From NCBI GenBank assembly GCA_964017185.1, contig OZ024878.1, positions 3,534,151-3,598,150 of the forward strand: a stretch of 64,000 nt of DNA, written 5' to 3'. Below, in pieces: positions 32,701 through 61,212 of the stretch. Numbering within the stretch: position 1 is the stretch's first letter; every line of letters begins with the position of its first letter. The translations under genes were made by a program, and so were the position numbers. The stretch is from Rugalucina vietnamica (lineage: Eukaryota > Mollusca > Bivalvia > Lucinida > Lucinidae). A model generated the notes under the pieces. The model was not told where the DNA came from. It saw only the letters and a program-made list of their open reading frames with translations, and ran no database searches.

Positions 32701-35700
32701 TTGCCATTAAATGACATATTCCTATTTTTTTCTATTAAAATACCTGGGCTGTAAAAAAGGTCAAGGTCATCCCAGGGTCATGATTTATATAAATTTTGCA
32801 GAGCTCCATTGCCTGATGCTTCATGCATAGTTTCAAAATCATAGGCCTTCTGGTTCTGGAGAAGAAGATTTTTAAAGGTTTTTGCTATTTATAGCCATGG
32901 CGGCCATCTTGGTCATGTGACCTTGACCATTTATACAAACTTTCATTCACTCTTCCTAGAATGCTCTACATAAAGTTTGGCTTTGATTGGCCAAGCTTTT
33001 TCGGAGAAGAAGATGTTTGAATATTATGGTCATACACATGTATATAGCCCCGGGGCAGGGGCAGACAACCCTCTGGGCCCAATATATTTTCATAAACATG
33101 AATACTCTGTCCATTTGCTCATTCCTAGCAAGTTTCTTGCCATTAATTGACATTTTCCTATTTTTTCCCATTCAAATGCATGGGCGGCCTAAGTTGACCT
33201 TGCCGTAAAAAAATGTCAAGGTCATCCCAGGGTCATGATTTATACAACTTTGTATAGCTCCATTGCCTGATGCTTCATGCCAAGTTTCAAAATCATAGGC
33301 CTTCTGGTTCTGGAGAAGAAGATTTTTAAAGGTTTTTGCTATTTATAGCCATAGCGGCCATCTTGGTCATGTGACATGGACCATTCATATAAACTTTCGT
33401 TCCCCCTTCCTAAGGATGCTCCACATGAAATTTGAATTTGATTGGCCAAGCGGTTTCAGAGAAGAAGATGATTGAAAAGTGTGAACGACAACAACGATGA
33501 CGACGACCACGACGACAGAGCATGGGTATACTATAAGCTCACCTTGTGAACTTAACAGCTCAGGTGAGCTAAAAATAAAATAGTTTTCATGCTCAGCAAG
33601 GATGAGAATTTATCCTGCTCATAAATGTTAAAATGCTAAAAATGCCAACAATTGAGATGAGCAAGAAAAAAGTTTAATAACCTTGGCCCCAGATCAATTT
33701 GGCAACACAGGACACTACAATCAAAATAAAAGGTCCAAAGTGCCATAGAAGCCCCATTGCTGTATCGCTTAGTGTAGGAATTCCTAAAAAGGGGGTTTTA
33801 GGGCATTTTGGACCCTTTAGTTTGCTTGTAGACATTAAACGTCAATGTCCTGTGGTTGCATCAATCTACACAGTAACAAATTTGGTTGATAAATGGTAGG
33901 GGAATTCTAAGCACCAATAATTCTCCTTTCCCCTAGCCATCTTTTGGGGAGGTACAACATGGTTCGTGTCTGACCTAAAAAGAAACTCTATAAACCTTTT
34001 TTCTCTTGAAGAGATGACAAACACATTGATATTACTTACTCCTTTAATGGTGAAACACCCATGGGTGAGGGTGGGGGTTGGCTCAACTTCATAAGTGTGA
34101 CTGCTGTACCAATACCTCGGATCACGATACCAGATTCACCTTCAAGGTCAAAACACTGGTTATATCTGTAAAAGAAATCGCATTAGAGTGGTGAAACACC
34201 CAGGGGTGAGGGTGGGGGTTGGCTCAACTTCATTAGTGTGACGCTGTACCGATACCTTGGATAATGATACCCGACTCCTCTAAGTAAAAACACCTGTTAT
34301 ATCTGAAAACAGTGCATGTTTAAGCTGTGTGTGCTTATTTGTGACTGGACATTCCAGTCAACAATTTTTCAGTCATATCCATTCATTGTCCAGGTGGAGC
34401 CACAACTGCTGGGACTTTACCAATACACCTGAGTGCCAGCAGGGTTCAACCCTTGGATTTCTAGGTTTGGAGTCCAATGTTCTGGACATGACTAGCCATT
34501 GCATCCTCGATAAGCTATGGAATGAGAAAATCAGACATTTTATCTTTTAAGAATGCACAAACAAAATGAGCACATCAGCTGCATGGCAATGGCACAGGTG
34601 ATCAGCATATTTGTTTTGGCCATGTAGATTGTTTATACTTATAGTACCTGGAAAACTGCAAAAAATGTATGTCATCCAGGTCCTGACAGCAACATTATCT
34701 TTAACACTTTTTCCTCAGCGCACAAAGTTGCATTTGCTGTTAATCAGAACTTAATGCCTATCCTTTAACATGTTACTGGAAACTTAGTAGTGACCATGTC
34801 AGACATGAAACAGTAAATGCTTTTTTTCCAACTTCAGTATTATTCCATCCTGAATAACAAACCTCTAAGCCCTTTTACCAGTGTTTTGTGCACTTCCTTA
34901 ACCCAGTAAATGACAACTGCCCTACAAATTAATCTAAAACTACAGTGTACAATTATTACCCTATAACAGCACTTCCGCCCATCTCTAAGACTTTTAATCC
35001 AATTTTCCTCGTCAGCTGACCTGTGAAAAACAGGAAAAAATCAAATTTGGAGCATAAGAGGACTAAAACACATTAACAAAATTGATTGATAGAAAATTTC
35101 TAAAGCAGTTCATAAGTTATTGAGACAGACACTTATTAACTAACATAGATCAGTCTTCATAAGCTAATGATATTTTGTCCACAAATGAAACCTAAGTACG
35201 TAAAAATGAAGGCAATAGCCTGCAGTTTTTGCATAGGTAGTACAATCAGTTTAACTTTTAATATTCAAAATTTCAAAGAAAGAATACAAAGTCCAGGAAC
35301 ATAACTGTTATTTACCAGTACATAAGTCTTTAATTTTGTGCAGAACTAAGGCATTAAAAATACTAGAAAAAGTGCCTTGAGAGGCACATATACCCCCGGC
35401 TGGTAGCCCCCCAGCCACACCCATCACCAAGCCCACCACCCTCATACCCGGATATGCTCATCCCTGACACATTGAACCCCAATTCACGAATCAAAGAGAG
35501 CACTCACAACAAGTACATCTTATTAATTTGCATTTGCAAAAAGCATTGCCTACAACCATGGGGGGGGGGGGGTGTTAGTAGAATGACATATCTATTTTAG
35601 AGCAGTATACAGAGCTGACTTGCATACTCAATCTAGGACTTGATCGCGGACACTGAGGGTCATGTCCTCGGTCCTAGATGGAAAATAGAATGTTGTTCTT

Positions 35701-44700: not shown

Positions 44701-47029
44701 GGTTTTCCCATGCAGTGGCTCATATATATGTTTGTTTACTGGTGTGACTTATAGGTAGCATATTGCCATGATATTAAGTGCAAAATTTGAAGTTTCATTG
44801 GTTCCAAAACCTCGGTTCAGTCAGATTTATAGCCAAATATCCAGAAAACTAACAATTGCTGGTGGATATAAAAATGCTGATTCTTCATTATAAATACAAA
44901 ATGTAAATATAAAAACTGATATCACAATGAATTATGCAAAATCATGGTCGAGTTTCCCAAAGATTCCCCTTTACAAAGACAAATTCTTGTTATTCAATGC
45001 TTGACACAATCATATAACTGTGATTGCAATATGTAAGCGTTTTTGTTCAGTTTTACTTCCCTTTCAAGATAATTTCAACTCAGAGGAGATGGGCCACCCA
45101 ATCAATATGTGAGCCTGTGTGTGAGAAAACCAACAATTTGGATTCCGACCATGTCCAACACAAACCGGGCTGTACAGTCACAGAAGATGGTTAGAGGCTT
45201 GAAATTTTGTATTTAAGTAGAAGAGGGATAATGTACTGTCTGTGTAGTGAAAACAAAGGCGCTGATCAGCTTCGCAATTACTGCGAAGCTGTTCTGCGCC
45301 TTTGTTTTCGCCTATGCACATTGTTGGTTTTCCCATGCGGCAGCTCAATATGCAAGGCAAAACATTAGAGTAATGCAAATAAAACCACCTGCCACACCTA
45401 CAAACAGAACATGTGCCCTGTGCAGGACTTGAACTCACACCTGACGCAACTGAGAGATGATCGAATGATTAAGAGCGTTAATGAAATCAGCAACCTTAAC
45501 TCATTAAAGCCTGGCATTCTTTTATTGGGACACAGGCAAACAGAATAGCCTCAGATGTAAAGCCGCAGAATGCGGTGTCCCATTTGAGGCTATTCTGTTT
45601 GCAAAGAGAATTTCATTGAAAATTGAGATAAAAAATACAAATCACTCCTAATCCCTCTAAAAATGAAAGTGGATTCACCCAAACAATAACAATGGGAGAA
45701 TCCATTTGTCATAGATGGGTTAGTCACTTAGCTACAGGAGACCATTCAATCCGTAAGTGACTTACCTCAAATACAAACCATTCAGAGTTCCATTGTGGGG
45801 AGCGTGACCTCTTGTAAACGTCTGTTTTCTGAATGTCACTGCCAAACCTCACCTGGGACATAAGAACAGCTAGTGAAACATTGAATCAAGGGATAATAAA
45901 GTCATTATACACAGCATTAACAATGTTTTGTCCATACCAGAGCTTTTTCTCTATGCAAAACTGCGTCCAGTAGGCGGTTTCCAGTACCATTTAAATTTTT
46001 CCCAGCTGGCCAAAAAACTCTCAATTGACCTGAAAAGTTCCCAATTAGCATAAAAATCCCAATTTAAAGGTAAACTTTCCCAATTAAGCTAACAATCACA
46101 CTATATTACAGAAAAAATGTGTTTTTTTTCCCCGATTTCATCGGTACCAAAAATTACCAAAAAAGGTGAGAAAAAGTCCTGCATACAGATAGTGATAGTG
46201 GATTCCCAGAGCTCTATATCATTTGAGCCACCACAAGAGAAAACCAACAATTTGCATAGGCAAAAACAAAGACGCAGACCAGCTTTGCGGTTACCGCGAA
46301 GTTAATCAGCGCCTTTGTTTTTGCTTCTCGGAAAGTACAATCCCTCTTCTTCTTAAATCCGAAATTTCAAGCTTCTAGTTGTCTTCTGTGGGATTAGAGC
46401 CCGGTTTGTGTCCGACCTGTTCAAAAACCACACTGTTGGTTTTCTCATGCGGCGGCTTATTTCAGGCAAATGTGAACAACCTGGCTCAAACTGCTCTTGT
46501 ATGCTGATACAGACACAGCAACATCAATTGAGCCTTCAAGTGAGAAAACCAACAATTAAGTTTCTGACCAGGGCCAACACTAACCAGCTTGTTCAGTCAC
46601 AGAAGCAGGCTAGAGGCTTGAAATTTTGAAAATTTAAGAAGACGAGGAATGGTACTATCTGTGTAGGGAAAAACAAAGACGCAGATCGGCTTCACAGTTA
46701 CTGCGAAGCTGATGTGCGTCTTTGTGCTCGCATCTGCAGATTGTTGGTTTTCTGGTGCAATGGCTCAATTAGAATTACATGGAAATATGACCAAGAAAAT
46801 CTCAAACTGCCTTTGCCTTATAAAATTGAAAGGTTGTGAGAGGAAAGGACATTTGAGCCGCATCATGAGAAAACCGGATTTTTGCATTTTGCCTATGTGA
46901 AAACAAATCTTTTGTTTTCGCTACTCATATACATGTAGTACAATCCCTTTTCCACTTATCCAATTTCAAGCTTCTAGCCATCTTCAGTGACTATACAGGC
47001 TGGTTTGTGTCAAACCTGGTCGGAACTCC

Positions 47030-47060
<31 letters not shown>

Positions 47061-47224
47061 ACACACACACCCCTCCGAAGACTAGTTTTCTCGGGTCGCG
47101 GCTCATTTAATAAGAAATATACCTCAACAAAAGCATCAGTTGAGTCGGATGATCTATCCATAACTGGTAGACCCCGACCAGCCACAATCTTCACCTTTAG
47201 TTTGCCTGGCATTCTTCATCTACT
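8571..47224 (-). CDS. C2CD5: C2CD5/CDP138, C2 domain-containing protein 5 (gene span, 19 coding exons)
   Basis: Coding exons in transcript order: 47123..47212, 45766..45852, 43798..43838, 38713..38849, 37049..37144, 36572..36727, 34960..35020, 34040..34165, 25062..25468, 24078..24178, 23544..23652, 22990..23104, 22038..22265, 19547..19742, 17886..18744, 16756..16833, 11421..11546, 10217..10363, 8571..8753. All have AG/GT borders, and phases agree except between the 16th and 17th, where a 3n+2 exon seems missing. About 1,110 residues; human is about 1,000. The family binds Ca2+ and lipid through its N-terminal C2 domain and aids Akt-dependent GLUT4 vesicle delivery. Seen here: the C2 start [36 protein letters not shown] in the Ca2+ loop region, a conserved Akt site RQRLFS near residue 199, a two-CxxC zinc-ribbon-like segment, and the conserved tail block [11 protein letters not shown] and [14 protein letters not shown]. 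Five exons have decayed tandem copies. An acceptor at 47225 implies an upstream 5' UTR exon. Confidence 0.93.
8777..9010 (-). mobile_element. P-family MITE just past the C2CD5 stop side
   Basis: Lies in the last C2CD5 intron, about 24 bp from the acceptor of exon 19. The hairpin arm CAGCTGCACAGCTGATCTGC is duplicated. Confidence 0.85.
9075..9205 (-). mobile_element. Degraded SINE (same body as 24464 copy)
   Basis: Keeps GGGCCAATCAGTAGGTGGGG, GCGAAAATGG and TTGTCTCACATGTGCC blocks of the tRNA-like SINE seen at 24464 and 27968. Confidence 0.6.
9311..9590 (+). mobile_element. Hairpin element G, full copy
   Basis: Ends CATCAGGAAAACATGTCC and GGACATGTTTTCGTAATG. Near-perfect centre AGAACCGCCTCGGCGAGGCG within about 55-bp arms ending in TTATTTTTGCTC. 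Confidence 0.85.
10217..10363 (-). CDS. C2CD5: C2CD5 coding exon 18
   Basis: 147 nt, phase 0 to 0, acceptor GTATTTCAG, donor GTTTGT. Reads [20 protein letters not shown], then [19 protein letters not shown] and NPHKNQ; the family has GGVSGFLHAFIAEVFAMVRA, then LGGNAVVSYIMKQCVFM and NPNKNQ. Confidence 0.95.
10950..11185 (-). mobile_element. P-family MITE between C2CD5 exons 17 and 18
   Basis: Unequal ends (TGAGCCTGTGCCTG versus CATGCGGCGGCTCA), so the terminal pairs have diverged here. Confidence 0.85.
11421..11546 (-). CDS. C2CD5: C2CD5 coding exon 17
   Basis: 126 nt, acceptor ATATCTTTCAG, donor GTATGT, phase 0 at both ends. Reads [20 protein letters not shown] then [12 protein letters not shown], matching VKMTPLSFIPGAKITKYLG and [10 protein letters not shown]. 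The previous exon ends in phase 1, so an exon of 3n+2 nt should lie between 11547 and 16755. Confidence 0.94.
11640..11702 (-). pseudogene. Partial tandem copy of C2CD5 exon 17
   Basis: About 55 bp recurring just 5' of exon 17 (transcript sense), coding [14 protein letters not shown] before homology stops. No acceptor is apparent at its start. Confidence 0.7.
11708..13402. repeat. Large inverted repeat, arms about 550 bp, in a C2CD5 intron
   Basis: Left arm 11708..12263 and right arm 12837..13402 are near-identical reverse complements (for example CCACCAATCCAGCTCTTTCA and its mate at 13379). The spacer of about 570 bp is unique. Scattered substitutions show the arms are no longer identical. 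No transposase frame seen. Confidence 0.9.
13803..15341 (+). repeat. Tandem-unit element, three units of about 454 bp
   Basis: TTGACCTTGCCGTAAAATAG recurs at 14048, 14501 and 14955. The element starts at ACCAGAGGACCAATGGTCCT and ends in a CGGACG-rich stretch and the palindrome AGCTCACCTG...CAGGTGAGCT. GCCATCTTGGTCATGTGACC marks each unit. Confidence 0.88.
15908..16081 (+). mobile_element. P-family MITE lacking its hairpin
   Basis: Ends and right flank present, but the central hairpin is cleanly deleted, leaving about 174 bp. Confidence 0.75.
16756..16833 (-). CDS. C2CD5: C2CD5 coding exon 16
   Basis: 78 nt, phase 1 to 1, acceptor TTTATATCCAG, donor GTGGGT. Reads [20 protein letters not shown]; acidic and poorly conserved, so the call rests on splice sites, phase and position. 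Confidence 0.75.
17138..17347. mobile_element. MITE with TACTGTAAATCCGGAAATTT ends
   Basis: Inverted ends TACTGTAAATCCGG and CCGAATTTACAGTA, and internal CGCGAAAAT repeats. Fragments of the same type occur at 3632 and 36865. Confidence 0.75.
17398..17671 (+). mobile_element. Hairpin element G
   Basis: The central pair reads AGAACTGCCTTGACGAGGCAGTTCT: changed from the CCGCC...GGCGG form in both arms, so pairing is kept. Confidence 0.8.
17886..18744 (-). CDS. C2CD5: C2CD5 coding exon 15 (859 nt)
   Basis: The largest exon, phase 0 to 1, acceptor TTTTTCCTCTAG, donor GTAAGG. The reading continues upstream of the TTG sometimes taken as a start: [20 protein letters not shown] precedes [17 protein letters not shown]. 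Further conserved blocks: [56 protein letters not shown], then [16 protein letters not shown]. Confidence 0.96.
19405..19507. repeat. Foldback hairpin with GGGCTACGCCC loop
   Basis: Arms CATTCATTAACATT...CCTCGG and CCGAGG-like...AATGTTAATGAATG close on CGGGCTACGCCC. It resembles the foldbacks at 31135 and 62479 in loop style. Confidence 0.7.
19547..19742 (-). CDS. C2CD5: C2CD5 coding exon 14 (zinc-ribbon-like)
   Basis: 196 nt, phase 2 to 0, acceptor TATGTTACAG, donor GTATGT. Contains CSTCHIPY, then [18 protein letters not shown]: two CxxC pairs about 20 residues apart, as in the family (CGFCHIPY, CYNCRKQKVPDVLFTTID), plausibly a zinc ribbon. A non-LTR retrotransposon lies antisense in the intron just upstream of it. 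Confidence 0.95.
19882..21910 (+). mobile_element. Broken non-LTR retrotransposon (jockey/CR1-type RT), antisense in a C2CD5 intron
   Basis: Pieces in three frames: [19 protein letters not shown], then [49 protein letters not shown] followed by a stop, and the C-terminal RT region to [11 protein letters not shown], ending near 21532. Endonuclease is absent (5' truncated). Frameshifts, an in-frame stop and a 214-bp DNA insertion (20970..21183) show it is dead. The 3' untranslated part seems to run to about 21910, near a GATGTA-type repeat. Confidence 0.9.
20970..21183. mobile_element. Short hAT-like MITE inserted in the reverse transcriptase
   Basis: Flanked by an 8-bp duplication CCGTTTTG (20962..20969 and 21184..21191). 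Ends are imperfect inverted repeats (AGGCCCTCCCAGGGG versus AGGCCCCCGCAGGGG). Leaving it out makes the RT coding sequence continuous across one copy of the duplication. The interior is rich in CAGGGA motifs. Confidence 0.85.
22038..22265 (-). CDS. C2CD5: C2CD5 coding exon 13
   Basis: 228 nt, phase 2 to 2, acceptor TTTCTTACAG, donor GTAAGG. Starts [17 protein letters not shown] (family EEVCILSASGTAAVLN), then a Gln/Lys/Asp-rich variable stretch ending [10 protein letters not shown]. Confidence 0.92.
22381..22617 (+). mobile_element. P-family MITE upstream of C2CD5 exon 13
   Basis: TGAGCCTGTGCATG and CATGCACAGGCTCA ends: a different end sequence, yet still self-complementary. Good hairpin GCTTCGCGGTGACCGCGAAG. 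Confidence 0.9.
22776..22935 (-). pseudogene. Two decayed tandem copies of the 3' half of C2CD5 exon 12
   Basis: At 22862..22935 the [13 protein letters not shown] stretch and donor (GTGAGT) recur with frame-breaking differences. At 22776..22801 only the TCACATATGAGA part survives. With exon 12 they form a tandem ladder of roughly 130-140 bp steps that includes the downstream intron flank. Confidence 0.75.
22990..23104 (-). CDS. C2CD5: C2CD5 coding exon 12
   Basis: 115 nt, phase 1 to 2, acceptor TATTTGACAG, donor GTAAGG. Reads [20 protein letters not shown] then [15 protein letters not shown], a near match to the family block DAWWAEIRQEIKSHAKALGCHAVVGYSESTSI. Confidence 0.95.
23544..23652 (-). 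CDS. C2CD5: C2CD5 coding exon 11
   Basis: 109 nt, phase 0 to 1, acceptor TTATTGTAG, donor GTACTG. Reads [20 protein letters not shown] then [16 protein letters not shown], matching [36 protein letters not shown] in the family. Confidence 0.95.
23971..24053 (-). pseudogene. Partial tandem copy of C2CD5 exon 10 with its donor
   Basis: 85-bp-period duplication of the 3' part of exon 10 ([15 protein letters not shown]) and its GTAAAT donor, placed just downstream in transcript sense. The two copies differ at only a few bases, so the event looks recent. Reading through the first donor meets TAG before the second copy, so the second donor cannot simply extend the exon in frame. Confidence 0.8.
24078..24178 (-). 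CDS. C2CD5: C2CD5 coding exon 10
   Basis: 101 nt, phase 1 to 0, acceptor TATGTTCTAG, donor ATG|GTAAAT. Gly/Ser-rich start then [16 protein letters not shown]. The donor was chosen because it keeps phase with the next exon; an inner GTATAG donor would not. Confidence 0.85.
24464..24716 (-). mobile_element. tRNA-derived SINE
   Basis: On the minus strand: a tRNA-like head with TGGCCGAGTGGTTAAG and a box B-like GGGTTTGAGCC, then a body with TTTTTCTCGGGGTTCTCCC and a TGAAATAATCTTGAAAGGGA tail leading to an A-rich end. Confidence 0.75.
24725..24955. mobile_element. Foldback element F
   Basis: Ends GGAGGTTATAAAACATCTTT and AAAAAAGTTTTATAACCTCA. Nested palindromes TCAGCTCAGCTGA and TGTTAAAATGCC...GGCATTTTAACA. 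Confidence 0.8.
25062..25468 (-). CDS. C2CD5: C2CD5 coding exon 9 (Ser/Pro-rich linker)
   Basis: 407 nt, phase 2 to 1, acceptor TTGTGTTTCAG, donor GTTGGT. It encodes a low-complexity Ser/Pro/Thr linker ([24 protein letters not shown]) ending [14 protein letters not shown]; the family has SSSSDTDLSLTPK at the same place. The linker is disordered and probably a phosphorylation target (inference). Confidence 0.92.
26528..26764 (+). mobile_element. P-family MITE in the large C2CD5 intron 9
   Basis: Hairpin of the CTGTGCAGTAACTGCACAG type, fully paired. Confidence 0.88.
26783..27043 (+). mobile_element. P-family MITE, adjacent second copy
   Basis: Starts 20 bp after the previous copy. Carries an internal 34-bp duplication of TTACAATCCCTCTTTTCTTA. 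Confidence 0.8.
27232..27375. mobile_element. Foldback element F, half copy
   Basis: Keeps CCGAGGTTATAAAACTTTTT and TCAGCTCAGCTGAG; the right half is missing. Confidence 0.6.
27578..27793 (+). mobile_element. Hairpin MITE with GGGACGCCGCG centre
   Basis: Central hairpin CAGAATAGCTCCAGATGGGA, CGCCGCGTTATGCGGCG, and the complementary arm. Other copies at 37265 and 45500. Confidence 0.75.
27968..28235 (+). mobile_element. tRNA-derived SINE with A-tail
   Basis: Head CCCGTGGCCGAGGGGTTAAG with box B-like GGGTTCGAGCCCC, body CTCGGGGTTCTCCCG, tail ATCTTGAAAGGGACG then an A-rich run. The head is Leu/Ser tRNA-like but has an inserted internal segment. Confidence 0.8.
28800..29030 (+). mobile_element. 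P-family MITE
   Basis: The right end is eroded (CTCACACACAAA instead of the mirrored TGAGC end). Confidence 0.8.
29226..29461 (+). mobile_element. P-family MITE with near-perfect hairpin
   Basis: GCTTCGCGGTAACCGCGAAG with fully paired outer arms, and ends TGAGCCACCTCATGGG/CCCACGAGGTGGCTCA that differ from other copies but pair with each other. Confidence 0.9.
29551..29786 (-). mobile_element. P-family MITE
   Basis: Opposite orientation to the copies on either side, so the cluster at 29.2-30.1 kb alternates +, -, +. Confidence 0.88.
29833..30072 (+). mobile_element. P-family MITE
   Basis: The GAAAACGGGATTTTTTCGCC subterminal variant; hairpin arms GCTTTGCAGTAACTGCAAAG are paired. Confidence 0.88.
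30283..30557 (+). mobile_element. Hairpin element G
   Basis: CATCAGGAAAACATGTCC start; centre AGAACTGCCTTGGCCAGGCG with a few arm mismatches. Confidence 0.8.
30752..31084. mobile_element. Foldback element F with SINE inside
   Basis: Ends GAGATTATAAAACATTTTTC and GAAAATGTTTTATAACCTT. A tRNA-like SINE (about 30888..31055; TGGTCAAATGGATAG, GGGTTCGATCCCT) interrupts the middle. Confidence 0.75.
31135..31296. repeat. Foldback hairpin with GGGCGAAGCCC loop
   Basis: Arms of about 70 bp (ACAATTGTTGCCCTTGAGTG and its mate), both carrying GACGATTTGTTCACC-type sequence. Confidence 0.8.
31325..31555 (+). repeat. Two-copy tandem repeat, about 113-bp unit
   Basis: ACGCATGTGACTACAAGTGC occurs twice, each followed by TATGACGTCAGAGGGTAATA and GATCATGCGACATGAC. 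Confidence 0.85.
31733..31930 (-). mobile_element. P-family MITE, one hairpin arm deleted
   Basis: The deletion runs from GGCGCTGATC to the second TTTGTTTTC, leaving about 198 bp. Confidence 0.8.
32092..33570 (+). repeat. Tandem-unit element, three units
   Basis: Same family as 13803..15341: starts ACCAGAGGACAAATGGTCCT, ends in ACGACGACC repeats and AGCTCACC...CAGGTGAGCT. Similar length and order suggest one parent element. Confidence 0.88.
33592..33690. mobile_element. Foldback element F, internally deleted
   Basis: Short version: TTTTCATGCTCAGC, TTTATCCTGCTCATAAATGT and AAAAAAGTTTAATAACCTTG. Confidence 0.6.
34040..34165 (-). CDS. C2CD5: C2CD5 coding exon 8
   Basis: 126 nt, phase 2 to 2, acceptor CTTTTACAG, donor GTAAGT. 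Reads [20 protein letters not shown] then [16 protein letters not shown], matching [27 protein letters not shown]. Confidence 0.94.
34189..34302 (-). pseudogene. Broken tandem copy of C2CD5 exon 8
   Basis: A second copy lies immediately 5' (transcript sense) of exon 8 and keeps the acceptor (GTTTTCAG) and most of the exon. It lost bases at two places, which shifts the frame to a TAA soon after GIGTAS. It also lacks a donor at the matching point, so it is a dead exon that could still compete as a cryptic acceptor. Confidence 0.8.
34960..35020 (-). CDS. C2CD5: C2CD5 coding exon 7 (61 nt)
   Basis: Phase 1 to 2. Reads [19 protein letters not shown] with G at both junctions; the family has [20 protein letters not shown]. 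Acceptor TTTTTCACAG, donor GTAATA (weaker). Confidence 0.92.
35365..36490. repeat. Tandem-unit element bounded by TATACCCCCGGC/GCCGGGGGTATA
   Basis: Terminal inverted ends CATATACCCCCGGC and GCCGGGGGTATAAC. About four degenerate units with CTAGCCCCACCCCTGGGCAT and GTACCTATGGTCCAAATATG, then a CGAACGAACGGACGA tail. It sits between C2CD5 exons 6 and 7. Confidence 0.8.
36572..36727 (-). CDS. C2CD5: C2CD5 coding exon 6 (Akt-site exon)
   Basis: 156 nt, phase 1 to 1, acceptor TGTATTCCAG, donor GTGAGC. Reads [20 protein letters not shown] then [25 protein letters not shown] fits the RxRxxS Akt consensus at the position of human Ser197 (about residue 199 here). Confidence 0.95.
37049..37144 (-). CDS. 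C2CD5: C2CD5 coding exon 5
   Basis: 96 nt, phase 1 to 1, acceptor TTTCATTGCAG, donor GTAAGT. Reads [14 protein letters not shown] and [13 protein letters not shown], matching the family's IRGEINVVVKVDLF and [12 protein letters not shown]. Confidence 0.95.
37265..37487 (+). mobile_element. Hairpin MITE with GGGACGCCGCA centre
   Basis: Same family as 27578: AGATGGGACGCCGCATACTG, CGGCGTCACATCT. Lies just downstream of exon 5's acceptor side. Confidence 0.75.
37765..37880 (-). pseudogene. Exon-4 tandem copy D of C2CD5
   Basis: Open frame [15 protein letters not shown] to FPIHDTMHG with one codon deleted, and donor GTGAGT. There is no convincing acceptor next to the homology; the nearest in-phase AG lies about 18 bases upstream and lacks a pyrimidine tract. 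A P-family MITE at 37902..38138 separates it from copy C. Copies B and D share their upstream flank (GCACACAATTT type), so they come from the same duplication. Confidence 0.65.
37902..38138 (+). mobile_element. P-family MITE inserted between exon-4 copies C and D
   Basis: Compared with the equivalent flank of copy B, the insertion point is inside CACACAATTTCAT. It therefore postdates the exon tandem duplication. Confidence 0.9.
38243..38359 (-). pseudogene. Exon-4 tandem copy C of C2CD5 (exon-like, 117 nt)
   Basis: Open frame DTIGKVYI to FPIYDTMHG with a two-codon insertion relative to exon 4 and donor GTGAGT. The nearest upstream AG (TTTAAG) would give a 117-nt, phase 1 to 1 unit, again a multiple of three. 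It is more diverged than copy B: for example, PAVIS has become SASVRS. Confidence 0.65.
38475..38579 (-). pseudogene. Exon-4 tandem copy B of C2CD5 (exon-like, 105 nt)
   Basis: Repeats the [12 protein letters not shown] to YDTMHG part of exon 4 with an open frame and a good donor (GTAAGT). The first 11 or so codons are replaced by unrelated sequence ending TTTTTATACTCAAG, which could act as an acceptor. If used after exon 4 it would be phase 1 to 1, a multiple of three, and insert 35 residues in frame. Whether it is spliced is unknown. Confidence 0.7.
38713..38849 (-). CDS. C2CD5: C2CD5 coding exon 4, intact copy of a four-copy tandem exon array
   Basis: 137 nt (phase 2 to 1) after TTATTTTCCAG, ending CATG|GTGAGT. 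It encodes [20 protein letters not shown] through [12 protein letters not shown]2 loop-3 aspartates and the last strands. It is the only copy in the array that retains the VLDHDTYS half. Confidence 0.95.
39060..42000. repeat. Tandem-unit elements with CCCCCCGCAAAA/TTTTGCGGGGGG ends
   Basis: About a dozen degenerate units of roughly 200 bp carrying CTGTAAATTTGTCAAAAATT, TTCATGCACATCTTCAATAT and CCTAGGAGGAGTTGATTTCA. At least two element ends are visible (about 40620..40660 and 41955..41998), each AACTTCGTTTTGCGGGGGGT preceded by a GACGGAATCACGGAAT tail. Nested copies in the long intron between exons 3 and 4. Confidence 0.88.
42047..42280 (-). mobile_element. P-family MITE
   Basis: TGAGCCACCTCGTGGG start, paired end CCCACGAGGCGGCT; the last bases have decayed. 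Confidence 0.85.
42310..42534. mobile_element. Foldback element F, full copy
   Basis: GAGGTTATAAAACTTTTTTC and AAAAAAGTTTTATAACCTCG ends. Short arms with TTTATCCTGCTCATAAAT-type sequence on both sides. Confidence 0.8.
42641..42877 (+). mobile_element. P-family MITE
   Basis: The GCCGCATCGTGAGAAAACCG end class, with perfect hairpin GCTTCGCGGTAACCGCGAAG. Confidence 0.9.
43046..43284 (-). mobile_element. P-family MITE close to C2CD5 exon 3
   Basis: Hairpin of the GTGCAGTTACTGCAC class with one arm mutated. Confidence 0.85.
43798..43838 (-). CDS. C2CD5: C2CD5 coding exon 3 (41 nt)
   Basis: Micro-exon reading [13 protein letters not shown] plus two bases (AG), matching the family's VDDEDLQDEPLQI. 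Acceptor TTTTTAAG, donor GTACTT. The AG pairs with the A of the next exon to make Arg. Confidence 0.9.
43911..44142 (+). mobile_element. P-family MITE ending about 70 bp upstream of C2CD5 exon 3
   Basis: Starts 70 bp from the exon 3 acceptor; the left end is degraded (TGTGCCATTAGAAAACTTG). Confidence 0.8.
44218..44437 (+). mobile_element. P-family MITE
   Basis: Hairpin partly decayed (GCTTTGTGGTAACCGTGAAG). Confidence 0.82.
44488..44722 (-). mobile_element. P-family MITE
   Basis: Third of a close series (43.9-45.3 kb). The two ends belong to different end classes. Confidence 0.85.
45110..45347 (-). mobile_element. P-family MITE inserted in a SINE
   Basis: The SINE body (about 45048..45500) resumes after the MITE. 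ATATG occurs at both borders (45105..45109 and 45348..45352), the clearest candidate target duplication seen for this family. Confidence 0.85.
45500..45722 (-). mobile_element. Hairpin MITE with GGGACACCGCA centre
   Basis: Third copy of the 27578 family. It ends 40 bp from the donor of C2CD5 exon 2. Confidence 0.7.
45766..45852 (-). CDS. C2CD5: C2CD5 coding exon 2
   Basis: 29 codons, phase 0 to 0, flanked by TGTCCCAG and GTAAGT. It reads [13 protein letters not shown] and [12 protein letters not shown], matching the family's [20 protein letters not shown]. Too short to appear as an ATG-to-stop frame. Confidence 0.94.
46224..46459 (+). mobile_element. P-family MITE
   Basis: TGAGCCACCACAAG end; hairpin with several mismatches. 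Confidence 0.82.
46529..46767 (-). mobile_element. P-family MITE
   Basis: TGAGCCTTCAAGTGAG end; the second arm begins a run of changes (CTGATGTGCGTC). Confidence 0.82.
46854..47105 (+). mobile_element. P-family MITE with C-run and CA-run expansion
   Basis: The hairpin is mostly deleted, and a run of C followed by (CA)n expanded at 47028..47071. It ends 18 bp from the donor of C2CD5 exon 1. Confidence 0.85.
47123..47212 (-). CDS. C2CD5: C2CD5 coding exon 1 (C2 domain start)
   Basis: ATG at 47212; 30 codons ending DAFVE, then donor GTATAT. It carries the first C2 strand and the loop-1 aspartates in [13 protein letters not shown] long T-run followed by CCACAG places the acceptor just upstream, at 47225. 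The intron just downstream holds a P-family MITE with C and CA runs. Confidence 0.95.
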
Positions 47225-51229: not shown

Positions 51230-51492
51230 AATAGTCTAATAGTATTTATATTACTTCACTTTTTCTCGTGCACCGAATAGTATTTATATTACTTCACTTT
51301 TTCTCGTGCACCGAATAGTATTTATATTACTTCACTTTTTCTCATGCACCGAATAGTATTTATATTACTTCACTTTTTCTCGTGCACCGAATAGTATTTA
51401 TATTACTTCACTTTTTCTAGTGTACCGAATAGTATTTATATTGCTTCACTTTTTCTCGTGCACCGAATAGTATATTACTTCACTTTTTCTCG
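51230..51492 (+). repeat. 38-bp minisatellite upstream of the defensin-like gene
   Basis: AGTATTTATATTACTTCACT recurs every 38 bp from 51241 (51241, 51279, 51317, 51355, 51393, 51431), about six and a half copies with few differences, each ending CTCGTGCACCGAAT. Confidence 0.92.
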
Positions 51493-51757
51493 TTTCGGTG
51501 CACTGGACTCATTTTTCCAGGGCTGTACTCGTTTTCCGTTGGGTTAATATTTTCTCCTTATTTCTAAAATTGAATCTTTTGGTAGCCATAAGACCGAAAT
51601 TGTTTTAAAAATCTAATGGCCGATTCGGATCACCATAATATAATATACACATATTTAGTAAAAACAATATTACATGGACCCAACATCAAAGTTGTGATAC
51701 ATTAATATCATTTTACCAAGAAGTGTCTTGTGTCTGGTGCAAAAGAGAATTGATAAA

Positions 51758-51821
51758 ATGGCTTCGAGAACAACACTTTCAATTTTGTTATTTTTGTTTT
51801 TATTTACAGTTACCATATGCG
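51758..51821 (+). CDS. Defensin-like gene exon 1 (signal peptide)
   Basis: 21 codons plus one base, ending TGCG|GTAAGT. AAA before the ATG fits an animal start context. An upstream in-frame ATG at 51728 would add ten residues before the signal sequence and is less likely. Confidence 0.85.
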
Positions 51822-52008
51822 GTAAGTCAGTTACGAAAACTTGCCCATGTAATATATGTAGAGATTTTTTTCCAGCTTCATCGGAAAAACTTGATATTTT
51901 CAATATTTTTGCTCAAAACATAGATTATGGGTACACGTTAGAACCGCCTCGGCGAGGCGGTTCTAACGAGTACCCAGAATCTATGTTTTGGAGAAATCTA
52001 TGTTTTGG

Positions 52009-52063
<55 letters not shown>

Positions 52064-52206
52064 AAAAAAGTATATACCCCGCAAACCCCATTGAATAATT
52101 ATATAAAAGTGGGGTTTAACGGGGTATCCATTGCACGGACAAGTTTACCTGATGGCCAAATCAATATCACCTTGAAAATATTGTCGTGATTTCAATTTTT
52201 AATTTC

Positions 52207-52263
<57 letters not shown>

Positions 52264-53209
52264 TAAATTCGACATGGTTGTGTTATTAATGTTTTGAAGA
52301 TATCGAGACTATAACGCCGCTTTTCTAATTAAATTTTATGGGTGAGCCGCGACGCCAGAAAACCAGTCTTCAGGGTGTCCGACCAGGCCCCGAGGTTATA
52401 AAACATTTTTCATGCTCAGCTCAGCTGAGACTAAAATTTACCCTGCTCATAAATGTTTAAATGTTTAAGCAGGATGAATTCAAGGCTTAAGTGATCTAAA
52501 CCTGAAATTATAATTTATTTGGGCTATTTCAGTATCTATGAGCAGTTTAAATTTTATGCTCAGCTGAGTTGAGCATGATAAAAACTTTATAACCGCGGGC
52601 CAGGTCCCTAGGTTATAAAACATTTTTCATGCTCAACTCAGCTAAGTAAAAAATTTAAACTGCTATTAAATACTAAAACAGTCCAAATATATTGAAATTG
52701 AAGGTTTAGAATGCTAACGCCTGTACTGAATTTATCCTGCTAACAAATGTTAAAATGCCAAAAATTATTGGCATTTTAACATCCATGAGCAGGATAAATT
52801 TTAGTCTCAGTTGAGCTGAGCAGAAAAAAAAGTTTTATAACCTCAGAGCCAGGTCCCACACAAACCGGCCTGTAGGCTATCTAAGTATAAGCTTGAATTT
52901 TTGGATATAAAAAGAAGATGAATTGTACTATCCATGTAGCGAAAACAAAGGCGCTGATCAGCTGTGCAGTTACTGCACAGCTGATCTGCGCCTTTGTTTT
53001 CACACAGGCAAAAAGCCGGTGTTCTCATGATGCGGCTCATGCTTCTTCCTACAGCTCAGAAGATGACCTATGTGAATGCTGGTCATGGCTGCAACAGACT
53101 TCTGTTCAGCGCTAAATGTACCTCGGACTGCATTAAGGCGGGCTATAATGGTGGGATATGCATCAGAATCTTCTGTGTGTGTTTCCCGGACTGGGATAAC
53201 AAAAAGTAG
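51758..53209 (+). CDS. Secreted CS-alpha-beta defensin-like peptide (two exons)
   Basis: Exons 51758..51821 and 53055..53209 join in phase 1 (donor GTAAGT, acceptor CTTCTTCCTACAG) to give a 72-residue precursor. Exon 1 encodes a textbook signal peptide: MASRTT, then a Leu/Phe/Ile-rich core, ending about Cys21. The mature part of about 50 residues has six cysteines (precursor positions 34, 43, 47, 57, 62, 64) spaced C-x8-C-x3-C-x9-C-x4-C-x1-C, the invertebrate defensin signature, with GHG before the first cysteine and GG before the fourth. Such peptides form one helix clamped to a beta hairpin by three disulfides and disrupt microbial membranes or bind lipid II. The intron is packed with nested transposons; the first begins about 12 bp after the donor. 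AATAAA lies at 53319. Family is secure by spacing; target and expression are unknown. Confidence 0.85.
51833..52155 (-). mobile_element. Hairpin element G with long A-run, in the defensin intron
   Basis: Starts ACGAAAACTTGCCCATG about 12 bp after the exon 1 donor and ends GGACAAGTTTACCTGATG. The centre GAACCGCCTCGGCGAGGCGG is intact; an A-run of about 45 expanded inside. Confidence 0.85.
52343..53039 (-). mobile_element. P-family MITE split by two foldback F elements
   Basis: Left piece 52343..52387 and right piece about 52850..53039 join as one P copy (TCCGACCAGG... then AGGTCCCACACAAACCGG). Two F elements (about 52388..52600 and 52612..52846) lie head to tail between them. Confidence 0.82.
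53055..53209 (+). CDS. Defensin-like gene exon 2 (mature cysteine domain)
   Basis: Two bases complete the split codon, then 50 codons and TAG. It holds all six framework cysteines. A P-family MITE ends 15 bp upstream (53039), just before the pyrimidine-rich acceptor. Confidence 0.87.
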
Positions 53210-53216
53210 GTTTTTA

Positions 53217-53313
53217 TTTCCTTTTCTTGTTCTTGTTCTTCTTCTTGTTCTTGTTCTTGTTCTTCTTGTTCTTCTTCTTCTTCTTCTTCTTCTTCTTCTT
53301 CTTCTTCTTCTTC
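53217..53313 (+). repeat. (CTT/CTTGTT)n microsatellite in the defensin 3' UTR
   Basis: Almost 100 bases of CTT with interspersed CTTGTT units, starting 8 bases after the stop codon. Its opposite strand gives a meaningless Arg-rich open frame. Confidence 0.9.
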
Positions 53314-53318
53314 TCATA

Positions 53319-53324
53319 AATAAA
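53319..53324 (+). promoter_or_regulatory. Candidate polyadenylation signal of defensin-like gene
   Basis: AATAAA 110 bases after the stop, directly after a CTT microsatellite. Confidence 0.55.
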
Positions 53325-53469
53325 GTTATGGGCTTTTTTGCTGCTTCCCAAATTTTGGTGTTTTAAAAAATACATATTTGCAGGTTTAAATGTATTGTTG
53401 TTGAATATTGCGTTCTTCTTTAATGTTTAAAAACAAATTATTACTTTGTTATTCACCGAATATAGTCAT

Positions 53470-55311
53470 TGTTGATATTCACTCCCCCGAGAGGCTTAGT
53501 GATCATGACATTGTCTCTGAAACTTTGAAAATAGTTATTCCCCCCCCCCCCCCACCCATTAAGAAACCTATAAGAGAAAGGTTATAAATATCAGAAAGGT
53601 GATTATGACTCTATGAAAGCTGATGCACTTAAATTTGCAAAGGAGAAGTATTTCAGTGGTTACTCTAGTACACGGTCGGTTCAAGAAAACTTCAATTTGA
53701 TCACATCTTTTATCCAAGATTCAGCGGAGATAAACATATCCCATCAAAGACTAGTCGCTCAGTTTTCTCAGTCCCATGGTTAACACCTGAAATAAGAAGA
53801 AAGATTCGCAGAAAAAAACTCATGCTAAAGCAAAGAAAACTGGGAGTGCAAAATTTAGAACAACATTCGAAACGTTGAGAAGAGAAATCAAAACAGATAT
53901 CAGAAAACAGCATGAGTTGTACGTAAAAAGCTTTTGACACTCTTCCACATGAACTCCATAAAAGCAAATTGTTCAGTTATGGAATTGGTGGGAAGACACT
54001 TAAATGGATTGATGATTTCCTTTGCTACAGACAACAAAGAGTTGTTGTTAATGGCGTTAAATCTCTCTGGGCTCCGGTTGTAACTGGTGTACCACAGGGC
54101 ACCGTTCTTGGTCCCTTGTTGTTCTCTTTGCATATAAATGATATCACCTCGGCTATTAAATCGGAAATTAGACTCTTTGCTGACGATTGTGTTTGTTATC
54201 GTGAAATTAAAAATGTGGAGGATACAGTGAAACTTCAGAAGGATATTGATCGTTTAGGTAGTTGGGCCTGGAAATGGGGTATTAGATTCCAACCCATCAA
54301 GTGCAACATGATGCAGCTGACGAACAAACGGACTAGTAAAATTCAGGCTTCTTACAAACTTGAGGGTGCAGTGTTGGAAAATGTTGAAAATATCAAATAT
54401 CTCGGTGTAACAATAACTAAGGATTTAAAACGGAATGCTCACATCAGCAATGTGTTCACTATAGCCAATAGGACCCTTAGTTTTTTTTTTAGACGAAATC
54501 TGTTTTCTTGCCCCCAAGATGTGAGAGAAGCTGCCTATAAAGGTCTGGTGAGACCTATTCTTGAATATGGTAGCTCAGTTTGGAACCCTCATTATGAAGG
54601 TCTGATAGATGATCTGGAGAAAGTGCAAAAGCGTGCAGCTGGGTTTGTAACTAGGAATTATACATATGAAAAAGGTAGTATGACTGACATCCTTAAGAAA
54701 CTAAATTGGGAATCCCTGCAGAAAAGAAGGAAGGATAAAAGAATTATATAATTGCTTTACAAAGGTCTAAAAGGGAGAGCAAAAATACCCACAGATTACC
54801 AGTGAGCCGCATCGTGAGAAAACCGGATTTTTGCCTAGGCGAAAACAAAGGCGCAGAAGCTGATCAGCGCCTTTGTTTTCGCTACTCGGATAGTACAATT
54901 CCTCTTCTACTTAAATCCGAAAATTCAAGCTTCTAGCTCTTTTCTGAGCTTGTACAGGCCGGTTTGTGTCGGACCTGTTCGGAAACCCCGAAGACCGGTT
55001 TTCTCGCGTCACGGCTCAGTCCTTATCCCCCGAAATAGGCGTTGATGGACTCAACACTCCTTGGCATTTCTGATACCTTCAGCAAGTACAAATGCCTATT
55101 TACAAAGTTTTTCCCCAGACTATTAGAGATTCGAATGAACTCCCTGATTCTCTGATCTCCTCTGCTGAAGTCAGATGATTGTGTGTCTAAATTTACTTCT
55201 CTTGTGAGAGCTCGGGACTAATCCCCTCCGGTCAAGCCCCACCCCCACCCCTGGTGTGGTATTGTCAGTTTGTCGTTTCACCAGTAAACTGTTCTGATTC
55301 TGATTCTGATT
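53470..55311 (+). mobile_element. Second broken non-LTR retrotransposon (RT region)
   Basis: A 5' part from the region before the RT joins by internal deletion to AFDTLPHEL. Then one long open frame (53969..54751) carries GVPQGTVLGPLLFSLHINDI, the catalytic LFADDCVCY and the thumb-like LEKVQKRAAGFVTRNYTYEK. A P-family MITE (54803..55018) splits the C-terminus. The 3' end is marked by ATTCTG repeats at about 55290..55311. Same strand as the defensin-like gene. No endonuclease. Confidence 0.9.
54803..55018 (+). mobile_element. P-family MITE inserted in reverse-transcriptase coding sequence
   Basis: Ends TGAGCCGCATCGTGAG and CTCGCGTCACGGCTCA; one hairpin arm is deleted (GCGCAGAAGCTGATCAGCGC). 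The host coding sequence resumes on the other side with at most 1 bp duplicated. Confidence 0.88.
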
Positions 55312-55417
55312 TACGATAGAATCAATTTTTAAGTTTTATAACCTCGAGGCCTGGCTTCAGAAGTGGAATTAATGGGGTATACATTGCACGGATATATTTG
55401 ATGCACAAAATGACGAA

Positions 55418-55560
55418 TGAACCGCGATGCGAAAAAACCGGACTGCAGAATTTCCGACCAGGTCCGACACAAACCGGCCTATACCGTCAACCACAGAAGA
55501 AAGTTTTGGGTGTAAGTAGAGGAGAGATTGTACTATCCGTGTAGTGAAAACAACCAAAAC
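55418..55560 (-). mobile_element. P-family MITE, truncated
   Basis: Only the non-hairpin half (GAACCGCGATGCG, CCGACCAGGTCCGACACAAA) remains. Confidence 0.7.
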
Positions 55561-55809
55561 GTAAGAATTACATCTAAATCTCCACCTTAAAACGGTCAGA
55601 GGCAATTTATTTTGGTCTGTTTCCAGAGAAATGAAGCTATTCCAACGAGAATACGACGAACGACTCGCCTTTCCACACTTTGGGAAAAAAGACTAAAATG
55701 CGGAGTATCATATGTCGTATGCTAAAACACGTGTGAGAAAGTGCACGTGTAATTCGTGTAATTCACACGTGCACAACCACAGCGACAAGATATGGAAACC
55801 TTTCACATT

Positions 55810-56044
55810 TGAGCCGCGTCATGAGAAAACCAGCAATGTGGTTTGCGACCAGGTCCGACACAAAACGGTCTGTAGTCTCAGACGCAGGCTAGACGCTTGA
55901 AATTTCGAATTTAGCAAGAGGAGGGATTAGTACTATTCGTGTAGCGAAAACAAAGGCGCTGATCAGCTTCGAAATTACTGCAAAGCTGATCTGCGCATTT
56001 GTTTTCGCATATGCGAAACGCTGGTTTTCACATGACGCGGCTCA
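55810..56044 (-). mobile_element. P-family MITE
   Basis: Ends TGAGCCGCGTCATGAG and CATGACGCGGCTCA; the hairpin has minor mismatches. Confidence 0.88.
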
Positions 56045-56633
56045 TTTGTTTTGTATGTGATGGTTTCCATTCCATAATTCTACATGTATGCTGTATATAA
56101 ATTTTGACTAAACAATTACCGATGTTCTGCAGAAAACAAGAGATGTTCTTACTTGTTTTGGGCCGAGTGGTGTTAGGATACAGACCTGTAGTGGTGTTAT
56201 TCACGATTAGCGGTTCATGATCTGAAAGTCATCGTTTGTTAGCCTAGTTTCCACAGACGATTTTTTTTTTTTGACAAAGTTGGCTTTTCGCAGAAATATA
56301 TGCCCGTGTAAACTCAATTCTTTGGCGAAGTTTCATTGTCAAATATCTGTAACAAAGGTGAGCGAGCTAAGTAAATATAAGTAATCTTTGCTGTGTGTGA
56401 ACGCGCAAACTCATTGCCAAAGTGTCTGTGACAAATAATCTTCGTCAAAGAAACTTTGTCCGTAGAACCAGGCCTTACATGTAATCTCTGAAACTGAAGA
56501 TGCATTTCGGTTCTTTCCCATTTAATTAAATTCGGTGGTGATCGAAAAATCAAAAGTTGTTGGTTCATAATTGATATCATATCGTGTGGTTTTCTAGTCT
56601 TGTGTTGTCCATTTACATGTAATTGAGCCGCGA

Positions 56634-59557: not shown

Positions 59558-60562
59558 TCACATGTGCTTAAATGTCAGTCCCGACCCAGAGAAGTATTTT
59601 TCCATCTCGCCTTTCATGAGCGCGTGCATCTCGTCCGTCACGTGATCCCGCCACCCACCTCCTTTCCCGCTATTGATCAATCCCCCATGATCTGGAGCCA
59701 TCTCAAAGTCTGCGACGTCCACAAAATAGTCTCCATTAGTCATTTCGTTCTTTTTCATGTTTTCAATACTGCAGTGATCACATATTTTCTTCACGTTTTC
59801 CTCTGATAGTTCACGGCCGAGAAACTCTGCTATTCTTCTAACCGTACCTGCCATATCTTCCACCGTGTCTTCAAACTTAAGAAACAAGACATTTTCGTCG
59901 TTTCTCTGATCCCAGAACTCTCGAACATGCCTCCCCCAGGGTGTCCATGGCTCTCTTCCATCCATAAATCTCTTAAAATACTTGCCAAACGGACTCTTTC
60001 GCATCGTAATGAGTTCGGTAAAGTTATACAGTGACCAGAGTGTGTCCGGAAGGTTCCGGGCCGTGTAAATTATCTTCCCTTTCCCTGATCTGAGTTGCTC
60101 TGGAAGTAAGAAATGTTGGAGATGAGTTTTCACAAACCTTGGCGATGGAAGATTTTCAATCATTTTCAGACCTCCGTAATATGGCACCCCATCTAAGAGG
60201 AGATCTATCATCGGAAACCGAGCGTCTAAAAGCAGTGAGTTGGCCTTCTCGAAATCTAGAGTCTGTATTAGGTACACCAATTCCTGTGTCATGGTGGTCC
60301 CTGACCGCGGAAAGCTACACACCCAGATATCATCATCTCTGATGCCCATCTTCGCAATACCGTCCAGTTCTAATACGGACTCGCGGACATACACGAGACC
60401 TTTGTATCTGAGCACACCGTATTTTGGTGCATCTGCCGGATTGTTCCATTCACGCTTATGGTAGTCGTTCGTAACCTCGTTTTCAGCTGTCTCGTCGCCA
60501 TTTTCCTCCTCATTGGCATTCCTTGCAATTTCGTTTTCTCTTGCGCTTACCAGGTTACCCAT
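59558..60562 (-). CDS. Cytosolic-type sulfotransferase (PAPS-dependent), intronless
   Basis: 334 residues from the ATG at 60562; a longer reading needs a TTG start and is rejected. Sulfotransferases move the sulfonate of PAPS onto hydroxyls or amines of small molecules. Motifs in order: PAPS phosphosulfate loop CSFPRSGTT (residues 82-90; usual YPKSGTTW), catalytic His147 in FVKTH, 3'-phosphate binding TARNLPDTLWS with Arg169 and Ser177, and the C-terminal loop GKGGGWRDH (about 299-307; usual RKGxxGDW). The core matches the family's roughly 290 residues; an acidic N-terminal extension of about 40 residues is extra. MGNLVS fits the myristoylation pattern MGxxxS. No intron is visible, which suggests an old retrocopy or an intron-poor SULT branch. 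Substrate cannot be told. Confidence 0.92.
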   Translation of the reverse strand: MGNLVSARENEIARNANEEENGDETAENEVTNDYHKREWNNPADAPKYGVLRYKGLVYVRESVLELDGIAKMGIRDDDIWVCSFPRSGTTMTQELVYLIQTLDFEKANSLLLDARFPMIDLLLDGVPYYGGLKMIENLPSPRFVKTHLQHFLLPEQLRSGKGKIIYTARNLPDTLWSLYNFTELITMRKSPFGKYFKRFMDGREPWTPWGRHVREFWDQRNDENVLFLKFEDTVEDMAGTVRRIAEFLGRELSEENVKKICDHCSIENMKKNEMTNGDYFVDVADFEMAPDHGGLINSGKGGGWRDHVTDEMHALMKGEMEKYFSGSGLTFKHM

Positions 60563-61212
60563 GCTATTCAACTCGAGTTTCTTCCTAAATGTACAGCAGG
60601 TCTCATAAAATGAGAGTTACTTTCAAGCCCAAATTTGTTTTCAAAACAATTCTTTGTTTTCAAATAACCAGCCTGATTGTTTCTGTAAGTTCCCAAAATG
60701 CGCAGGTCTGAGATGATGGGATTTATTTTAAAGTCCAAATATGTTTTCTAAACTATCCTTTGTTTTAGAATACGTATTTTCAAATAGTCCACCTGACCGT
60801 TTAAGAAAATCTTAACACTGGTTCACAATATTTTAATGATAAATTTTAAGTCCCGAAAAGTTTCTGTTTCTTTAAATATACGTCTCACTGATGTGACATG
60901 ACAGTCCTTAGAGAACAGGCAATCTTACAAGAGTACACTCGCATGTGTCACGGTGACAATACCCATCACCTTACAAAAAATGTAACAAAAGAACCAAATC
61001 CGCTTACAGAATTATATAGCATCATTTGGAGGAGAGGCTTATTTCCGAATATACGCGCAATATTTGGCCACTTTCTCATTGTTATTTCCATTGTGAGGAG
61101 AATAAATTGGCATAATTACAGAAGATTTACATCATCAGTAGACAATTCATTCAGTATATTAACAAGGGATGAAAGCCTTTTAAAGCTCTCTAATGCCGTA
61201 GTAGGGATTAAA

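Follow-up and report, generated by a model that had tools for sequence, protein, structure and literature searches.

A stretch of 64,000 nucleotides of the Rugalucina vietnamica genome (C10:3534151-3598150, hereafter the window), in a searched assembly of 1.09 Gb and 47 contigs, harbours a gene for a small cysteine-rich peptide. Contigs C1, C5, C10, C12 and C17 of this assembly measure 35-102 Mb, whereas C20, C25, C30 and C40 are each shorter than 70 kb. The presence of a six-cysteine, signal-peptide gene at this locus was confirmed. In our judgement it is probably a functional three-exon bivalve gene, encoding the 94-residue precursor of a secreted defensin-like peptide of the CS-alpha-beta superfamily. 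A sister gene on a different chromosome (contig C9) fixes the exon map without the use of RNA. The gene is organised as follows, all features of known orientation lying on the plus strand:

51470..51757, plus strand: 5' flank with promoter and 5' untranslated region (UTR), kept in the sister gene (BLAST block 51470-51827 against the C9 copy)
51758..51821, plus strand: predicted exon 1, signal peptide MASRTTLSILLFLFLFTVTIC plus 1 nt, followed by the donor GTAAGT; conserved up to the donor in the C9 copy
51822..53054, plus strand: intron 1, phase 1, 1,233 nt, 89% repeat by window self-comparison
52343..53040, no strand assigned: nested dispersed transposon-derived repeats in intron 1, with the 3' edge 14 nt before exon 2
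53055..53205, plus strand: predicted exon 2, CS-alpha-beta domain, ...GHGC-x8-C-x3-C-x9-C-x4-C-x1-C...DWDNK plus 2 nt
53206..53211, plus strand: second splice donor GTAGGT, where homology to C9 ends (GTATGT in C9, without a stop)
53206..55626, plus strand: intron 2, phase 2, 2,421 nt, containing a microsatellite and a reverse-transcriptase fragment of a long interspersed nuclear element (LINE) at 53927-54751
55627..55696, plus strand: predicted exon 3, C-terminal tail (K)EMKLFQREYDERLAFPHFGKKD and stop TAA, in a block shared with the C9 copy
55697..56178, plus strand: probable 3' UTR, with conservation up to 55755 and in a second stretch, 56048-56178

A whole-genome DNA search with exon 2 found two places, the window itself and C9:32353728-32353896, which are 84% identical, and the 30 kb surrounding the C9 sister gene were retrieved for comparison. 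Exon 1 and the 5' flank of the sister align to the window block given above (274 of 373 columns identical, gaps counted), the alignment halting at GTAAGT and homology restarting at the exon 2 acceptor, TCTTCC(T/A)ACAG. Between these points, a 31-nt repeat piece is the single match of the sister's intron 1 to the window locus. The sister gene retains exons 1 and 2, their splice sites and all six cysteines. Inside the window, positions 51560-51830 had no other match in the self-comparison.

The two copies differ by 16.8 changes over 45.3 synonymous sites and 15.2 over 167.7 nonsynonymous sites (71 codons; Fisher p=1.7e-5, rounded counts), and the differences at codon positions 1, 2 and 3 number 6, 8 and 18. 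With exon 3 included, the ratio of nonsynonymous to synonymous change (dN/dS) is 0.23 (91 codons, p=1e-5); for exon 3 alone it is 0.54 and not significant (p=0.30). Because synonymous change greatly exceeds nonsynonymous change between the copies, the protein is under selection, and the comparison shows the predicted exons, their joining and the reading frame to be constrained at the protein level. For the reality of the gene this evidence is stronger than any pattern count.

Exon 1 comprises 64 nt, with the ATG at 51758, 21 codons and 1 nt before the GTAAGT donor that starts at 51822. Its hydrophobic core reaches 2.95 (12-residue Kyte-Doolittle mean), and judged on hydropathy it has the secretion character of the CS-alpha-beta superfamily. 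The final 14 nt of intron 1 (53041-53054) form a polypyrimidine tract and AG, the acceptor tcctacag ending at 53054, and the joined frame reads MASRTTLSILLFLFLFTVTICAQKMTYVNAGHGCNRLLFSAKCTSDCIKAGYNGGICIRIFCVCFPDWDNK..., with a cysteine spacing of 8-3-9-4-1. This is in agreement with a first-pass annotation made from the sequence, which had described a signal-peptide exon ending at GTAAGT and, more than 1.2 kb away, a second exon with six cysteines in this order, in matching phase (phase 1 on both sides of intron 1) and among transposons; both exons are 0% repeat.

In six-frame translation the window contains a single instance of the loose six-cysteine pattern, compared with 0.01 per simulated window (200 first-order Markov windows). 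Its strict GxC form is likewise present once, and none of the 200 simulated windows has it. According to 100 simulations, a phase-1 exon running from ATG to GTRAGT with a hydrophobic core above 2.8 should turn up 0.01 times per 64 kb strand. These counts, together with the sister gene and the protein-level constraint, make it extremely improbable that the cysteines and the hydrophobic stretch came together by chance; nothing other than the low Pfam and profile scores reported below speaks for such a coincidence, and the conserved sister gene already refutes it. No tandem copies were found within 100 kb on each side of the window by protein and exon DNA comparison, and the 30 kb retrieved with the sister gene contained no further copy. 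One match to a looser cysteine pattern, 42.7 kb past the window end, has no protein or exon DNA similarity and was taken as chance.

The first-pass annotation had described a two-exon gene ending at 53209, at the in-frame TAG 53207-53209. This part of it was not sustained, since the TAG sits within the GTAGGT donor 53206-53211 and the sister comparison reveals a third coding exon about 2.4 kb downstream, at 55627-55696, where coding continues; the codon was probably misread as the gene end. The exon 2 alignment ends exactly at this donor, and the sister carries TAT in place of TAG, so that its frame would continue for 46 codons. Homology resumes in the block 55587-55755 (143 of 169 positions identical to the sister gene), with the acceptor TTTCCAG in the window and TTTTCAG in the sister. 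No other copy of the block was found in the 200 kb flank, in seven repeat loci or in window positions 1-51000. In the required phase, the window reads (K)EMKLFQREYDERLAFPHFGKKD and the sister (E)DSKQFQREYDERLGFPIFGKD, each followed by a stop, with an in-frame 3-nt indel between them, giving precursors of 94 and 93 residues, respectively. Because homology stops at the donor over the TAG and resumes at 55627-55696, the predicted precursor has 94 residues, not 72; three coding exons are very likely, as is the assignment of the TAG to intron 2.

The defensin-like exons elsewhere in the genome, described below, provide a further comparison. A donor-like GTA is found at the same phase-2 position in six of the seven family exons compared. 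Four of the five exons other than the window and sister copies close at phase-2 donor-like sites (GTAGGT, GTAAGT, GTAAAC and GTAAAC), and the fifth, L043, ends in TGA without a donor-like site. A gene of two coding exons ending at the TAG, with the block 55587-55755 being something else, would account for the in-frame stop and for the closing of the frame at this codon in five of the six copies with a donor-like end. Nevertheless, such a gene is quite unlikely given the TAT and the read-through in the sister, the end of homology exactly at the donor, the downstream block with its conserved acceptor, common frame and 3-nt indel, and the GT at +5/+6 in four of the six donor-like sites. An in-frame stop can thus form part of a splice donor, and what had looked in the genomic sequence like a 'complete' peptide was truncated.

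The tail encoded by exon 3 of the three-exon gene has 23 residues and no cysteines, with a charge of about +0.6 in the window copy and -2.3 in the sister copy. A second conserved block, 56048-56178 (112 of 133 identical), which contains AATAAA in the sister and ACTAAA in the window, is probably 3' UTR. An AATAAA at 53319 was considered as the gene terminator and dropped because it lies inside intron 2. Likewise, an exon 3 candidate picked by eye near 53381 was rejected, its two-copy alignment scoring no higher than chance, since 63 of 300 shuffles matched it.

A repeat family terminates close to exon 2. The ends of 30 matches to other parts of the window fall at 53029-53041, and for 26 of these matches at 53037-53041; across the genome, 11 out of 144 rows end at 53037-53040. 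Since this repeat edge lies 14 nt before exon 2, the branch point of intron 1 is likely supplied by repeat sequence. An intron 1 filled with repeats and a transposon edge so near the acceptor could also suggest a decaying relic whose function has been lost, and constraint measured on two copies is compatible with a very recent loss in the window copy. We consider a relic very unlikely in view of the open frame, the conserved donors and acceptors and the strong protein-level constraint between the copies. In a working gene, selection would have preserved the exons and splice sites as transposons filled intron 1 and spread into intron 2.

We place the peptide in the known CS-alpha-beta superfamily, as a new and divergent member. 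It has the cysteine frame C...CX3C...C...CX1C of the superfamily, which is kept in the sister. Disulfides in the CS-alpha-beta fold pair C1-C4, C2-C5 and C3-C6. Both AlphaFold2 runs predicted one helix and a two-stranded sheet, as the first-pass annotation would have it (core blocks with a predicted local distance difference test of 77-84, mean 67.6-68.7). Among the PDB structural neighbours listed, most are CS-alpha-beta defensins and scorpion toxins, with weak scores.

Comparison of the peptide with the two Pfam defensin families gave matches, all of them below the cut-offs. For PF24552 Defensin-like (cut-off 27 bits) the exon 2 peptide scored 25.1, the 72-residue form 24.0 and the 94-residue form 23.3, and the sister gene 22.6-24.9. 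For the arthropod defensins of PF01097 (cut-off 20.4 bits) the scores were 13.2, 16.5 and 15.6, in the same order. PF24552 was not found named in the literature searched. A canonical-defensin profile of 23 rows, mostly bivalve and tick sequences, gave the window peptide 6.8 bits, which was reached by 63 of 5000 cysteine-fixed and 32 of 5000 full shuffles; for a 5-row profile the score was attained by 40 of 2000 shuffles with the cysteines fixed and by 18 of 2000 full ones. As it was weak and attained by shuffles, this profile was discarded as proof of close kinship. The hhalign probability with five bivalve defensins was 33%. The 72-residue form was also compared with 5.77 billion proteins, in a search requiring 5-residue words in common, which returned two candidates and no scoring relative. 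The sequence between the cysteines is thus unlike known defensins, as first noted, and the canonical profile barely detects it. Exon 2 encodes six cysteines and exon 3 adds no more, so the peptide lacks the eight of mussel defensins, mytilins and myticins. It also differs from big defensins, as it ends in CxC and not in a vicinal CC and has no hydrophobic N-terminal domain (compared by eye with AiBD).

Further defensin-like exons are present in the clam genome. The genome search with PF24552 gave nine places, the sister first and none above the cut-off (best E 0.08). In addition to the sister, five of them were fetched, and three (two on C1, one on C15) were left out. Because the search also missed the window copy, the family count is a lower bound. 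The same search found a match in 0 of 14 control genomes. With the 23-row profile, the paralogues scored 10.7-21.8 bits for their best domain (sister 10.7), the window peptide being lowest at 6.4. In L044 the mature exon follows a same-phase acceptor, and 1.1 kb upstream lies a phase-1 signal-exon candidate with GTAAGT; no exon 3 was recognised for it in 3 kb. Through their GHGCP and GRGCP starts, L042 and L044 to L046 form a bridge between the window peptide and the canonical GFGCP type. These loci place the window gene in a small, diverged clam family. Common to its single-domain members are the GHGC/GRGC start, a short C4-x4-C5 loop, and a phase-1 acceptor and a phase-2 donor flanking the domain.

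L045 (C17:31344981) and L046 (C17:31337397) are defensin-like exons separated by 7.6 kb; their peptides are 88% identical, and the two are likely a tandem pair. L042 (C17:29592050-29592550) is a defensin-like exon preceded by its own truncated copy, with a C-rich run between them, probably the result of a recent internal (partial) duplication. L043 (C9:57610450-57610950, minus strand) is an open frame with two tandem CS-alpha-beta-type domains, FRGCPAAK... and LGCPKNNF...; its score of 28.2 bits lies above the PF24552 cut-off.

It is a tentative and rather improbable suggestion that these loci form a defensin-like family not described before, with single-domain exons on three or more chromosomes, one two-domain member and one member carrying an internal exon duplication, and that this family could manage resident bacteria rather than kill invaders. 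Such a family may escape annotation because the exons are short and the introns are nests of transposons; short multi-exon peptide genes are easily overlooked in transposon-rich mollusc genomes. The loci also offer a ready set for testing the divergence of defensin loops under a fixed cysteine frame.

Regarding function, exon 1 would supply the signal peptide, while the disulfide-knotted domain (GHGC...GGICIRIFCVC) would come entirely from exon 2 and the tail from exon 3. If the gene is expressed, as is probable, the peptide would most likely be exported with its three disulfides (C1-C4, C2-C5, C3-C6) and would act as a host-defence peptide on microbial envelopes; we infer an antimicrobial or defence action. 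No kappa-B sites were found in the 1 kb upstream of the gene. To our knowledge, bivalves have no venom apparatus, which argues against the peptide being an ion-channel ligand or signalling peptide instead of an antimicrobial one. Potassium-channel toxins are present among the structural neighbours, and the exon 2 peptide has weak Pfam matches to scorpion short toxins (16.7 of 25.1 bits) and ergtoxins (15.7 of 25). Moreover, name and activity are uncoupled in the CS-alpha-beta superfamily, according to PMC5116183. The same paper proposes a KCXN motif and a short n-loop as a sign of channel toxicity, and by this criterion the peptide, which has GICIR and an 8-residue n-loop, lacks both. Taken together, a channel ligand is unlikely. 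In the host-defence peptide, the tail may help the peptide to fold, or it may be cut away, as PMC7168163 suggests for the precursors of mussels.

Similar to the window peptide, the bivalve defensins MGD-1 (mussel, PDB 1fjn) and Cg-Defh1 and AOD (oysters) have a signal peptide, a GxGC start, CxxxC, GxC and CxC. G9, G11 and G33 of the exon 2 peptide and the six cysteines are invariant in an alignment with 24 relatives. However, the window peptide starts with GHGC-N/S, not GFGC-P, its n-loop has 8 residues instead of 5-6 and its C4-C5 loop 4 instead of 7-8, and MGD-1 and Cg-Defh1 carry eight cysteines. The best PDB sequence match is Nasonin-1 of Nasonia (PDB 2koz, E=0.0077), one of a group of short defensin-like peptides, which shares the spacing C2-x3-C3-x9-C4-x4-C5-x1-C6. 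It differs in having its second cysteine at residue 7, with an n-loop of at most 5; 23 residues align, and it comes from an insect, not a mollusc.

Mussel mytilins resemble the window precursor in their signal peptide, cysteine-rich core and separate C-terminal extension (PMC7168163), but have eight cysteines in another array, four exons and an anionic extension. The bee and wasp defensin 1 genes have a phase-2 intron after the CxC motif (PMC2853521), comparable to the window gene, where a phase-2 junction splits the eighth codon after CxC. The same paper treats them as classical insect-type defensins, the wasp form having an extra C-terminal domain, and no close sequence match between them and the window peptide was found.

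The gene is flanked by a C2CD5-like first exon (minus strand) near 47.2 kb on one side and a sulfotransferase gene (minus strand) on the other. The remaining features of the window are:

17872-18741: C2CD5-like exon, matching C2CD5 Pfam domains
46994-47215, minus strand: probable C2CD5 first exon, which continues into a CA-repeat and a dispersed repeat
59558-60553, minus strand: sulfotransferase, within one open frame that spans 59558-60616

The frame at 46994-47215, picked out by eye in the list of open reading frames, is what we take to be the C2CD5 N-terminus. Nearest to the sulfotransferase are proteins from ENA records, seven of them (P0004-P0010) with 55-71% identity and one (P0066) partial. 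The closest matches that carry a species name are clam sulfotransferases at about 42-51% (Mercenaria, Ruditapes, Mactra and Mya), which points to a bivalve host, probably a heterodont. The window also contains three arrays of 454-bp tandem repeats, at 1-1141, 13949-15234 and 32329-33476.
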